Source: Chloroflexota bacterium (lineage in GTDB: Bacteria; Chloroflexota; UBA6077; FW602-bin22). Taken from it: 64,000 nt of DNA. This document shows positions 36,142-40,420 of the stretch, in pieces. Numbering within the stretch: position 1 is the first letter of the stretch; every line of letters begins with the position of its first letter. Location: assembly GCA_004297775.1 (NCBI GenBank), contig SCUE01000003.1, positions 1 to 64,000 of the forward strand, given 5' to 3'. Both the position numbers and the translations under genes were made by a program. The notes beneath the pieces are model-generated. The model was not told the DNA's origin. It ran no database searches and saw only the letters and a list, made by a program, of their open reading frames with translations.

Positions 36142-37422
36142 GTGATTGACGCCGCCTCACGGGGCCAGGCGCGGAGCGACGATGAGATCGTCGGAGGTCG
36201 GCTCGTCCGCAATATCTTGTTGTTCGGACGCGTCTTGCGGGCCGCTGGGATCCCTCTGAGCGCCGGCCGCGAGATGGAACTCCTCGGGGCACTCCGGTTG
36301 GTGAACGTCGGCGATCGCGATCAGGTGTACGCGGCGGCCGCGAGCATCCTCTTGAGCCATCGCGATCATCGCGCGATCTTCGATCGTGCGTTCGCCCTGT
36401 TCTTCGCGCTTGCCTTCCGGGATGAGATGTCGCCGCCGCCGGATGCGCCACGATCGACGGTCGACGAGGCCGTCGGTCAGGCGCCACCCGAGGACGGCTC
36501 GACCGATGCTGACGTGGAGGCGGCGACCGCGAATCCGATGGCGCGACCATCGGACACACTGAACGAGAGTCAGGAGAAGGAAGCCGACGGCGCCGAGGCC
36601 CCCGATGCACAGACGTACAGCGGCAACGAAGTCCTTCGAGCGAAGGATTTCGATCGCTACACGTCCGAGGAGATCGCGCGTGCGCGCGAACTCATGCGGC
36701 AAATGCGCCTGCGACCAGGAGTCCGCCGGACGCGCCGCATGGTTCCGTCGGCCGGCGGCCGGCATCTCGACATGCGGGCCGTGACTCGTGGGATGCATCG
36801 TACCGTCGGCGAACCGCTGCACCTGTACTTCCGAGAGAAGAAGCTGAAGAAACGGAAGCTCGTTCTGCTCTGTGATATCTCGGGCTCGATGGAGCGCTAC
36901 TCGCGGGTACTTCTCCAGTTCCTCCACGCGGCACGGCAGGGGATGTCGAACGTCGAGGTATTCGTCTTCGGTACGCGCCTGACACGGGTCACACGCGATC
37001 TCGCGTCGCGACAGGTCGATGCGGCGCTCGATCACATCGCGACGCGCGTTCAAGATTTTGCCGGCGGCACCCGAATCGGCCGCTCGTTTCACGATTTCAA
37101 TCGGCTATGGGGACGGCGAGTGATGGGGCAGAGCGCGGTCTGCATCATCATCTCTGACGGCTGGGACCGCGGCGACCCGAAACTACTTCGTCAGGAGATG
37201 GAAAGGTTGCAGCGGGGCGCATTCCGATTGATCTGGTTGAATCCGCTGCTCGGGCTGCCGGAGTATCAACCGGTGACGTTGGGCATGCGGACGGCCCTCG
37301 AGTTCGTCGATGACTTTATGCCCGCGCACAATCTGGCCAGCCTGGAAGCGCTCGCGGAACGTCTGGCCACGCTCGAAGAGAGGCGGCCGGTTCGCCGCCA
37401 CGCCAGCACGCTGGCGACGTAG
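36142..37422 (+). CDS. VWA domain protein (CoxE-like)
   Basis: 426 aa. The N-terminal ~120 residues are helical, ~120-165 an acidic low-complexity linker, and the C-terminal half a VWA domain whose metal-binding MIDAS motif is 'LLCDISGSMERYSR' (DxSxS, near residue 250), with 'FAGGTRIGRSF' and 'ISDGWDRGD' as later MIDAS loops. It should be the adaptor partner of the MoxR ATPase immediately upstream. The GTG start follows that gene by 12 bp. Confidence 0.87.
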   Translation: MIDAASRGQARSDDEIVGGRLVRNILLFGRVLRAAGIPLSAGREMELLGALRLVNVGDRDQVYAAAASILLSHRDHRAIFDRAFALFFALAFRDEMSPPPDAPRSTVDEAVGQAPPEDGSTDADVEAATANPMARPSDTLNESQEKEADGAEAPDAQTYSGNEVLRAKDFDRYTSEEIARARELMRQMRLRPGVRRTRRMVPSAGGRHLDMRAVTRGMHRTVGEPLHLYFREKKLKKRKLVLLCDISGSMERYSRVLLQFLHAARQGMSNVEVFVFGTRLTRVTRDLASRQVDAALDHIATRVQDFAGGTRIGRSFHDFNRLWGRRVMGQSAVCIIISDGWDRGDPKLLRQEMERLQRGAFRLIWLNPLLGLPEYQPVTLGMRTALEFVDDFMPAHNLASLEALAERLATLEERRPVRRHASTLAT

Positions 37423-37435
37423 GAGGAACGGTGGC

Positions 37436-38344
37436 ATGAAGTTTGGGCAGGCGCGTCTTTCCAGCGGAGCGGTTCACGCGGTCGTTCTTGACGGAGACGA
37501 ATTTGTTGACATAAGCGACGCAGCTCGTGGAATCGTCGCGATTCATGATTTTCTCGATCTTGCGTTAGCTCGGGGAGAGTCGCTCACGGCCGTACTTGAG
37601 CGAGCTGCCGCGGGCGCGACGCTCCGTTACGAGGCAACGACGCTTCTCGCGGGGCATGAATCGCGCGGGGCACGCTTGACAATGCCGATTGCGCCGCGAG
37701 ATGCCTGGGGCTGTGGCGTCACCTACAAGCGCAGCGCCGAGTTCCGCGATCAGGATGCCGCTGGTGGCACGCGCGGAATCTACGACTACGTGTACAGCGC
37801 CGAGCGCCCGGAGACCTTCTACAAGGGCAATGCCGCTCACACCGTCGGTTCGTTCGAGGCGATTGGCATTCGGCGCGACTCCACGTTCACGGCCCCAGAA
37901 CCGGAACTCGCACTGGTCCTGGATTCGCGTGGCACGATCGTCGGATTCACGTGTTCGAACGACGTGTCGGCCTGGGACATCGAGCGCGAGAATCCGCTAT
38001 ACCTACCGCAAAGCAAGGTCTTTCGCGCGTGTCTCGCGATCGGTCCCCTCGTCGTCACGCCCGACGAGGTCGGGTCGGGAATGGACCTGAACCTGCGCTG
38101 CCGCATCATTCGCGATGGGAACGCGATCCTCGATGGCTCGGTCAACACGTCGCAGATCGGTCGCACATTTGCCCAACTGATCGAGTTCTTGACCCGTGAC
38201 AACCCGATCGGGAACGGCACGATTCTATGCACCGGTACGGGCGTGATCGCCCAGCGGCAGCACGCACTGCGAGAAGGCGATGCCGTCGAAATCACGATCG
38301 ACCGGATCGGTACCTTGGTGAATCCCGTCAAGCGACTGGTATAG
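37436..38344 (+). CDS. Fumarylacetoacetate hydrolase family enzyme
   Basis: A 302-aa FAH-fold enzyme. The metal site is suggested by 'APEPELALVLDSRG' (E-x-E) and 'GFTCSNDVSAWDIERENPLY'; the C-terminus 'LCTGTGVIAQRQHALREGD' is typical. The overall pattern resembles 2-keto-3-deoxy-pentonate (e.g. arabinonate or xylonate) dehydratases more than true fumarylacetoacetases, so a sugar-acid role is possible; with the two nearby dehydrogenases this could be oxidative sugar catabolism, which is inference. ATG 37436 has AGGAGGAA 7 nt upstream. Confidence 0.82.
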   Translation: MKFGQARLSSGAVHAVVLDGDEFVDISDAARGIVAIHDFLDLALARGESLTAVLERAAAGATLRYEATTLLAGHESRGARLTMPIAPRDAWGCGVTYKRSAEFRDQDAAGGTRGIYDYVYSAERPETFYKGNAAHTVGSFEAIGIRRDSTFTAPEPELALVLDSRGTIVGFTCSNDVSAWDIERENPLYLPQSKVFRACLAIGPLVVTPDEVGSGMDLNLRCRIIRDGNAILDGSVNTSQIGRTFAQLIEFLTRDNPIGNGTILCTGTGVIAQRQHALREGDAVEITIDRIGTLVNPVKRLV

Positions 38345-38345
38345 T
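38340..38345 (+). promoter_or_regulatory. -10 box TATAGT upstream of the thrS T-box
   Basis: TATAGT overlaps the stop of the FAH gene, with TTGGTG about 19 nt upstream as a possible -35. A start near 38352 would place the whole T-box in the leader. Confidence 0.4.
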
Positions 38346-38351
38346 CGTTTC

Positions 38352-38609
38352 TGGACAATTCAATACAGTGCAATGGCGCAAGACGCGCTCTCGCGCGTGC
38401 CGGACCAGAGAAGTGGGGCATCGGCTGAAACCCCGCTCCGAATCGCGCGACGAGACACCACTTGCAGGCGTGGGTTAGTCAAACCACGATCGGTTGACTG
38501 ACTCCGGATGATGTCCGTTATCGCATCGTTGAGCGCGATGTCCGTGTGATGTCGAAGCTGGGTGGAACCACGTGGCGGCCCCTCGTCCCGAGCGATGATG
38601 GGCCGTTTT
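38352..38609 (+). ncRNA. T-box riboswitch (threonyl), leader of thrS
   Basis: A tRNA-sensing leader. Stem I: base pairing GCAAG (38378-38382) with CTTGC (38461-38465); specifier loop with codon ACC (38457-38459) followed by A; upper stem TCGCGCG (38391-38397) with CGCGCGA; AG-bulge AGAGA (38407-38411) and GGCTG terminal loop (38423-38427). AGTCAA/TTGACT (38477-38482 / 38494-38499) forms a middle stem. The T-box core GGGTGGAACCACG is 38560-38572, pairing partner CGTCCC 38584-38589. The competing terminator is CGGCCC (38576-38581) with GGGCCG (38600-38605) then TTTT. ACC is a Thr codon, matching thrS downstream. Uncharged tRNA-Thr should favour read-through. Confidence 0.93.
38576..38609 (+). 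terminator. T-box-controlled intrinsic terminator before thrS
   Basis: CGGCCC / GGGCCG outer stem, inner CTCG-TCC-CGAG hairpin, then TTTT at 38606-38609. Its 5' arm overlaps the antiterminator region, giving mutually exclusive folds. Confidence 0.85.
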
Positions 38610-38640
38610 GTGTGCGCGGCGATACCGGCGAGGAGGCACG

Positions 38641-40392
38641 ATGGACGATCTTGCGCGAATGCGGCATTCGGCGGCTCACGTGATGGCCAAGGCGGTGACC
38701 GATCTCGTGCCGGGCACCAAGGTCGCGATTGGCCCACCGATCGAGGACGGCTTCTACTACGACTTCGACCTACCGCGCGAGCTGACGCCGGACGACTTCC
38801 CGGAAATCGAGCGGCGCGTGCGCGAGCAGATCGAGGGTCACCTCGCGTTCACGCGTGACGAATGGTCGGTCGAAAGGGCGCGCGATCATTTTGCCAAGAT
38901 CGACGAGAAATACAAGGTCGAACTGATCGAGGACCTCGTCAAGAACGACGGCGTCGAGAAAGTTGGCATCTATCGGCACGGCGACTTCGTCGACCTGTGT
39001 CGCGGACCCCACGTCGCCGACACCGGCGAAATCGGCGTTGTCAAGGTGCTGAACCTCGCCGGCGCTTACTGGCGCGGCGACGAGAAACGACCAATGCTGA
39101 CGCGCATCTACGCGACCGCCTGGCCGAGCCAGGCCGAGCTCGACGCGCACCTCTGGCGGCTCGAAGAGGCGAAGAAGCGAGACCACCGCCGCCTCGGCCG
39201 CGAGCTCGACCTTTTCTCAGTCTCGGATGATGTCGGTCCCGGACTGATCCTCTGGCACCCGAAGGGGGCAATGGTCCGCGTCGTGGCCGAGGACTTCCAC
39301 CGCAACTCCCATTTGACCAACGGCTACGAGTGGGTGTTTTCGCCCCATATCGGACGCGGCGAACTCTGGAAGCGATCGGGTCATCTCGACTTCTACAAAG
39401 AATCGATGTACGCCCCGATGGATGTCGATGGTGAGGCGTACTACGCCAAACCGATGAACTGCCCGTTCCATATCCAGGTCTACAAGACCCACACGCGCTC
39501 GTATCGCGATCTGCCAAAGCGGTATGCCGAGTTCGGTACGGTGTATCGCTACGAGCGCTCCGGCGTGCTGCACGGATTGACGCGCGTGCGCGGATTCACC
39601 CAGGACGACGCCCACATCTTCTGCCGGCCAGATCAGGTCGAGGACGAAATCTCGCGTACGCTCGACTTCTCGCTCTTCGTTCTGCGGTCATTCGGCTTGA
39701 CCGATTTCAAGGCGTATCTCTCAACCCGCCCGGAGAAGTACGTCGGTGAGCCGGCCGATTGGGAGCACGCCGAAGTGGCGTTGAAGAGCGCGATCCTACG
39801 CGCGGAGCTTCCGTATGAACTCGACGAGGGCGGCGGGGCGTTCTACGGGCCGAAGATCGACCTGAAGGTCAACGACGCACTTGGTCGCGAATGGCAGTTG
39901 TCGACTATCCAGTTCGATTTCAACCTTCCGATTCGCTTCGGACTGGAGTTCGTCGGCGAGGACGGTCAGCCGCACGCCCCGTACATGGTCCACAGAGCGC
40001 TGCTCGGCTCAATGGAGCGATTCTTCGGCGTGCTGATCGAGCACTACGGCGGCGCCTTCCCCCTGTGGCTGGCGCCAGTGCAAGCGATCGTAGTGCCGAT
40101 CGCGGACCGGCACGCCGAGTACGCCGAGACGGTCGCGGCGCAGTTGCGTGGGGCAGGTCTACGGGTGGAGGTCGACGCGCGGCGCGAAAAGATGCAGGCC
40201 AAGATCCGGGATGCGCAAATGCAGAAGATTCCCTATATGCTCGTCGTCGGCGACCGCGAGGCTGCTGACGGCACGGTCGCGGTTCGCCTACGCACCGGGG
40301 AGAACGAGGGGTCGGTGCCGCTTCGCGCGTTCGTCGACCGAGCCAAGGCGATTGTCGAGGCACGGACACTCGAACTAACGAGCACGACGTAG
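38641..40392 (+). CDS. thrS: Threonine--tRNA ligase, form without TGS domain
   Basis: A 583-aa class-II synthetase charging tRNA-Thr. It opens directly with the editing domain ('RMRHSAAHVMAKAV', then 'FVDLCRGPHV' with the Cys/His editing site), so the ~60-residue N-terminal TGS domain of the usual ~640-aa enzyme is absent. The catalytic core shows 'YAKPMNCPFH' (zinc Cys), motif 2 'YRYERSGVLHGLTRVRGFTQ' and 'DDAHIFC'; the anticodon domain ends the protein. AGGAGG 4 nt before ATG 38641 and the T-box immediately upstream exclude a longer N-terminus. Confidence 0.95.
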   Translation: MDDLARMRHSAAHVMAKAVTDLVPGTKVAIGPPIEDGFYYDFDLPRELTPDDFPEIERRVREQIEGHLAFTRDEWSVERARDHFAKIDEKYKVELIEDLVKNDGVEKVGIYRHGDFVDLCRGPHVADTGEIGVVKVLNLAGAYWRGDEKRPMLTRIYATAWPSQAELDAHLWRLEEAKKRDHRRLGRELDLFSVSDDVGPGLILWHPKGAMVRVVAEDFHRNSHLTNGYEWVFSPHIGRGELWKRSGHLDFYKESMYAPMDVDGEAYYAKPMNCPFHIQVYKTHTRSYRDLPKRYAEFGTVYRYERSGVLHGLTRVRGFTQDDAHIFCRPDQVEDEISRTLDFSLFVLRSFGLTDFKAYLSTRPEKYVGEPADWEHAEVALKSAILRAELPYELDEGGGAFYGPKIDLKVNDALGREWQLSTIQFDFNLPIRFGLEFVGEDGQPHAPYMVHRALLGSMERFFGVLIEHYGGAFPLWLAPVQAIVVPIADRHAEYAETVAAQLRGAGLRVEVDARREKMQAKIRDAQMQKIPYMLVVGDREAADGTVAVRLRTGENEGSVPLRAFVDRAKAIVEARTLELTSTT

Positions 40393-40420
40393 GAGAGTGC
40401 CAGCGCGCTGCTCCGACCGC

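Follow-up and report, generated by a model that had tools for sequence, protein, structure and literature searches.

A putative threonine-specific T-box with a divergent proximal Stem I in the thrS leader of a Chloroflexota bacterium

Introduction

The thrS leader of Bacillus subtilis is the archetype of the thrS T-box (Rfam family RF00230). The leader described here shares with it the threonine specifier, the UGGA sequence for U73, the antiterminator/terminator switch and the gene, thrS, but differs in the absence of AGUA (S-turn) and GA/GAG (kink-turn), in a tract of four U, and in a threonyl-tRNA synthetase (ThrRS) without a TGS domain. The encoded enzyme has the domains of TGS-less bacterial ThrRS, as scored by the TIGR00418 model, and, like them, begins shortly ahead of the HxxxH in its editing domain.

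An early survey gives T-boxes for isoleucine and tryptophan genes in two Chloroflexi genomes, and places thrS among the T-box-controlled tRNA-ligase genes in at least 29 of 34 Firmicutes (PMC2494555). A later paper counts Chloroflexi among the groups having T-boxes (PMC3766115), and the T-box database TBDB states the rule relating UGGN to the discriminator base as well as a preference of threonine T-boxes for specifiers with 3'-A and 3'-C, into which the ACC specifier of the present leader fits (PMC7778990). Among the papers listed in a literature search covering mainly non-subscription journals, no title or abstract opening dealt with a TGS-less ThrRS under T-box control, and no priority is claimed.

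Results and Discussion

Identification of the T-box

The window, i.e. the whole 64,000-nt stretch of DNA analysed, carries thrS at 38641..40392; all features given below without a strand are on the forward (+) strand. A search with the RF00230 covariance model revealed a T-box leader at 38364..38593 (+), extending from Stem I to the antiterminator and covering model positions 1-219 of 219, with 56.9 bits and an E value of 6.2e-12 in the window and 1.4e-11 over the whole genome, where it is one of three T-boxes. The covariance-model match that the preliminary description had proposed as a check was thus obtained, though below the curated cut-off: the gathering score of RF00230 is 93, and a scan of the window at this level therefore yielded no match.

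Both distal motifs of Stem I, the AGAGA bulge and the GGNUG-type apical loop, are present: AGAGA at 38407..38411, read in the sequence and aligned with AGAGA of the model, and GGCUG at 38423..38427, supported by sequence and alignment. The conserved element CCGUUA between Stem I and the antiterminator (38515..38520) is aligned in the RF00230 match, and its columns are mostly invariant or nearly so in an alignment of 12 sequences. The folding stability of the whole 289-nt leader is not unusual (z -1.59), and Stem I is no more stable than shuffled sequences (z -0.78). All the elements read by eye in the preliminary description (ACC, AGAGA, GGCTG, the T-box sequence, CGTCCC and TTTT) lie where it had placed them. 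Its designation of the leader as a complete threonyl T-box is supported as to threonine but goes too far as to completeness, since two usual Stem I motifs, AGUA (S-turn) and GA/GAG (kink-turn), were searched for and not found. The leader is a genuine T-box and, most likely, a functional threonine-specific one.

T-boxes of thrS in the phylum

For comparison, 58 regions upstream of thrS were collected from 56 of 60 related genomes searched in the same phylum, two regions each coming from G011 and G043, and three (L198, L214 and L228) being short at contig ends. Four genomes without a thrS match starting near the N-terminus (G005, G027, G029 and G051) were left out, as were partial thrS copies (G012:C161, G048:C73, G052:C219 etc.). 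A T-box on the thrS strand (E up to 0.01) was found in 33 of the 58 regions. These T-boxes are like that of the window in their place, ACC register, UGGAACC sequence (32 of 33), CCGUUA element and antiterminator helix; they differ in the AGUA pattern, which matches 28 of 34 elements, the window counted, and is absent from the window. Of the 33, 27 score 63-108 bits and that of G001 scores 32.3 bits; only four reach the Rfam cut-off of 93. The single T-box without UGGAACC, L203 of G015, has UGGAAGC in its bulge.

In many relatives a tRNA gene immediately precedes the T-box, which suggested a tRNA-Thr co-transcribed with its sensor. This idea was abandoned: the 17 tRNA genes in the 58 regions are without exception tRNA-Val(GAC), 16 of them oriented like thrS and one (L225) in reverse. 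In 12 of the 58 regions, tRNA-Val(GAC) shortly precedes a thrS T-box of the same orientation (L191, L201, L203, L204, L206, L211, L213, L216, L223, L226, L230 and L245), and in four more it precedes a thrS gene without a called T-box (L202, L212, L217 and L240). The window contains no tRNA genes. In G003, the thrS T-box is accompanied by a divergently oriented second one on the other strand (L191:795-1082, +). The other two T-boxes of the genome studied here (L001:1501-1709 and L002:1501-1742, both on the reverse strand) are located, judged by eye, one before an acetolactate-synthase-like gene and one between TrmH-like and pheS-like genes.

Specifier codon and tRNA-Thr

The specifier codon ACC (Thr) was assigned to 38457..38459 from the register of the relatives and the flanking helix. 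Many relatives carry the sequence GAAAACC[A/C]C followed by a short helix, the strands of which covary (CAGG/CUG, CCGG/CGG, CGGG/CCG, GAGG/CUC and CAAG/UUG, after the C of ACCAC). Of the 34 elements, 30 were readable with the search pattern, and in 24 of these the printed letters of the two strands complement each other; in the others (L203, L205, L223, L230, L233 and L246) the pattern had mostly caught another ACC or was shifted by one base. The window could not be read by the pattern because it has no AGUA. In the window, the strand CAAG below the specifier loop (38379..38382) pairs with CUUG (38461-38464), the same helix as in L191, and the predicted fold pairs GCAAG with CUUGC. The ACC register is thereby fixed at 38457-38459, and the overlapping ACA (38455-38457), also a threonine codon, was rejected as being out of register with the helix. 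In the best fold of Stem I, two C of the specifier stretch are each engaged in a single isolated pair.

Among the 47 tRNA matches in the genome, all within loci read by ARAGORN, there are three tRNA-Thr genes (GGU, UGU and CGU), each with T right after the acceptor stem, that is, U73, to which the UGGA of the T-box is complementary in all three cases. The U discriminator of tRNA-Thr(GGU), which the preliminary description had proposed as a check on the pairing of UGGA with a tRNA ending in UCCA, is thus present. The tRNA-Gly genes likewise have T at the discriminator position, so the discriminator alone would not single out threonine; the codon does, and ACC matches the amino acid of the downstream gene.

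Antiterminator, terminator-like hairpin and gene start

The T-box sequence GGGUGGAACCACG (38560..38572), recognised by comparison with the UGGAACC of the relatives, forms the 5' arm of the antiterminator and contains the UGGA bulge, and CGUCCC (38584..38589), recognised by sequence and folding, forms the 3' arm. Positions 38584-38587 are also part of the 5' arm of a terminator-like hairpin (38574..38609; one fold gives a stem of 38574-38607, another a core of 38577-38604) that has the tail UUUU at 38606-38609, and these shared bases make the two structures mutually exclusive. The segment 38570-38612 folds at -23.0 kcal/mol, a stability equalled by just 4 of 1000 mononucleotide shuffles, and the best fold of 38557-38612 has -25.4 kcal/mol versus -10.3 kcal/mol with the antiterminator imposed. 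A simple terminator scan requiring at least five T in eight found none; the tail has four U. The outer pair of the ACG/CGU helix of the antiterminator is A-U in 16, G-C in 9 and G-U in 9 of the 34 elements including the window, in a pattern that allowed only U or C opposite, so that A-C was the sole detectable mismatch, and it was not seen.

Upstream of the leader, on the same strand, lies a gene of the fumarylacetoacetate-hydrolase family (37310..38344, start uncertain), whose stop codon (38342-38344) is separated from the T-box match by 19 nt. No promoter-like site was detected in a scan of 38001-38700, and TATAGT (38340-38345), noticed by eye, lies partly within the final codons of the hydrolase gene and was not counted. 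Thus, thrS may either have a promoter of its own or be transcribed by read-through from upstream. GAGGAGG (38630..38636) is Shine-Dalgarno-like by its position and sequence only.

Proximal part of Stem I

In the majority of relatives, the 5' side of the specifier loop carries GACGAGUA, and GA/GAG lies further towards the base; these are the S-turn (AGUA) and kink-turn (GA/GAG) motifs of Stem I. At 38383..38390, as judged from alignment and pattern search, the window reads ACGCGCUC in place of ACGAGUA, the majority form in relatives. The AGUA S-turn was found in its specifier loop with neither a stricter nor a looser pattern. No GA/GAG kink-turn motif was found at the base of its Stem I either, the alignment giving GC at the 5' GA position and AGG at the 3' GAG position. 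In the predicted fold, CUC of ACGCGCUC pairs across the loop with GAG. Counting the window, the stricter AGUA pattern matches 28 and the looser 29 of the 34 elements; those failing both are the window, G001 (L189), L221, L241 and L245, which reads AAUA, while L198, cut at its 5' end, fails the stricter only and L233 passes on a doubtful match. Similarly, GAG[C/U] occurs shortly 3' of the specifier in 28 of 34 elements and is absent in the window and L189. These motifs were treated as usual rather than strictly defining traits of T-boxes. Three low-scoring thrS T-boxes (L221, L233 and L241 of G036, G048 and G057; 38-44 bits) have a different specifier-loop sequence and belong to one ThrRS branch; they might be another Stem I variant.

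The two other T-boxes of the genome carry AGUA, and the leader of G001, the only other genome of the same family compared, likewise lacks AGUA and the GA/GAG motif. The loss is therefore particular to the thrS element and, as far as two genomes tell, to its family. It could hardly be asserted with confidence to be a single inherited change in the family, since the leaders of the window and G001 cannot be aligned by eye outside the core motifs and their ThrRS belong to different branches. Without the S-turn and kink-turn motifs, the affinity or geometry of Stem I may be different from the textbook case. Tentatively, the thrS T-box of this family could be imagined to work without them, the codon being displayed in a simple internal loop or a small hairpin loop, which would make both motifs dispensable for a T-box with a long Stem I, although we are inclined to doubt this; display of the codon in a small hairpin loop is suggested by the predicted fold of the G001 leader. 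In all else the T-box is an ordinary kind of RNA switch, the divergent proximal Stem I being its sole curiosity.

Probable mode of regulation

The elements, their conservation, the complementarity to tRNA, the overlapping hairpins and the gene, as established by sequence analysis and comparison, argue strongly that the thrS leader is a T-box riboswitch which senses tRNA and acts by transcription attenuation, and we regard this reading as highly probable. The steps that it predicts are tRNA binding, termination and a response to threonine. The ACC codon presented by Stem I would pair with the anticodon of tRNA-Thr(GGU), and the UCCA end of the tRNA, if uncharged, would pair with UGGA in the T-box bulge, stabilising the antiterminator GGG..ACG/CGU..CCC and letting RNA polymerase read into thrS. 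With charged tRNA, the more stable hairpin within 38574-38607 would form and transcription would stop at UUUU.

The missing S-turn and kink-turn motifs in the window and G001, together with the low scores (56.9 bits, and 32.3 in G001, versus 63-108 in 27 of the 33 relatives), would also suit a once working thrS T-box that is decaying, its Stem I function lost and thrS expressed by read-through or from another promoter. This appears improbable, as ACC, UGGA, both antiterminator arms, AGAGA, GGCUG, the CAAG/CUUG helix and the stable hairpin have all been retained, and UGGAACC persists in the T-box upstream of thrS also in G001, with a ThrRS of only 56% identity. The short tract of just four U and the empty terminator scan might point instead to a translational T-box, in which bound tRNA would make the ribosome-binding site accessible instead of blocking a terminator. 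However, the competing hairpin extends no further than 38607, leaving more than 20 nt to GAGGAGG (38630-38636), and is followed by UUUU, and runs of T follow the same hairpin in the leaders of several relatives (L191, L204, L213 etc.), which makes translational control very unlikely. As for a chance resemblance in a GC-rich intergenic stretch, nothing in the window reaches the Rfam cut-off and the folding energy is unremarkable, but an E value of 1.4e-11 genome-wide, a position directly upstream of thrS, the correct specifier and discriminator, and the occurrence of a T-box in this position in 33 of the 58 relatives leave it a negligible probability. The attenuation reading is thus preferred.

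ThrRS and its short N-terminus

The product of thrS (38641..40392, +), a ThrRS of 583 amino acids identified by domain and TIGR00418 matches, consists of the second additional (editing), catalytic and anticodon-binding domains. It is the sole protein of the genome above the TIGR00418 cut-off (706.7 bits versus 383.65); as the match of this TGS-less protein covers positions 1-562 of 565, the model itself appears to hold no TGS part. H9, H13, C120 and H124, presumably the editing residues, and C274, H325 and H451, which we take to be the zinc ligands, are common to a TGS-bearing ThrRS. The two best named relatives, among the best 80 of 591, are from Chloroflexi metagenome-assembled genomes, with 62-63% identity, which makes this the probable phylum of the genome as well.

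An in-frame TGA (38596..38598), 14 codons upstream of the ATG at 38641, leaves no room for an N-terminal TGS domain. Consistently, TGS (PF02824) was not matched by Pfam even in the frame extended to the upstream stop, with a sensitivity that is imperfect, as of two longer controls L064 was matched and L039 missed. The one TGS in the genome is elsewhere. In 39 of the 58 thrS of phylum relatives, the frame is likewise closed within 45 codons upstream, and a link between TGS loss and T-box control was not supported, closed frames being found in 21 of 33 thrS with a T-box versus 18 of 25 without. The longer frames number 19, 12 of them with a T-box ending at most 180 nt from the match start and seven without a T-box. 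A TGS of 60 residues would have no space between T-box and gene in any of the 33 T-box regions: in 28 the T-box ends at most 180 nt from the thrS match start, and in the other five a stop closes the frame within 45 codons. Among the named loci (the best 80 of 591), 32 have no room for TGS, three that run off the contig being beyond judgement, and by record titles these 32 include Chloroflexi, Kiritimatiellales, Verrucomicrobia, Spirochaetes, Elusimicrobia, Omnitrophota and Planctomycetales.

The short N-terminus is thus real, and it is ordinary for the group. The preliminary description had considered the combination of a TGS-less ThrRS with a T-box notable and the leader as what fixes the short N-terminus; short N-termini occur with or without a T-box in the relatives and named loci just mentioned, and the in-frame TGA suffices alone.

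Neighbourhood and origin of thrS

A relative of the upstream hydrolase, 70% identical, is found in the thrS locus of G001 (L153) and in none of the remaining loci of the 30 compared, with at most 1.5 kb per side. The ThrRS of the window and G001 share 56% identity. In the ThrRS tree, that of the window groups with G015, which belongs to another family (support 100/100), and that of G001 with G012 (97/95), the two falling within a branch that also contains G011 (100/100). Because the hydrolase-thrS neighbourhood (37310-40392 in the window) is common to both genomes while their ThrRS fall into different well-supported branches, it is likely that thrS was replaced in place, or transferred, in one of them, a reading for which the assembly's contamination estimate of 7.17% calls for caution. 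The region 37900-40400 had no match in a search against plasmids.

Conclusions

The thrS T-box is common in the phylum (33 of 58 regions), where the early two-genome survey listed T-boxes for isoleucine and tryptophan (PMC2494555); later surveys may already list those of thrS. Judging by its leader, the bacterium most likely makes more threonyl-tRNA synthetase when tRNA-Thr is uncharged, and the element is a naturally occurring example with which to ask what portions of Stem I are dispensable in a T-box.
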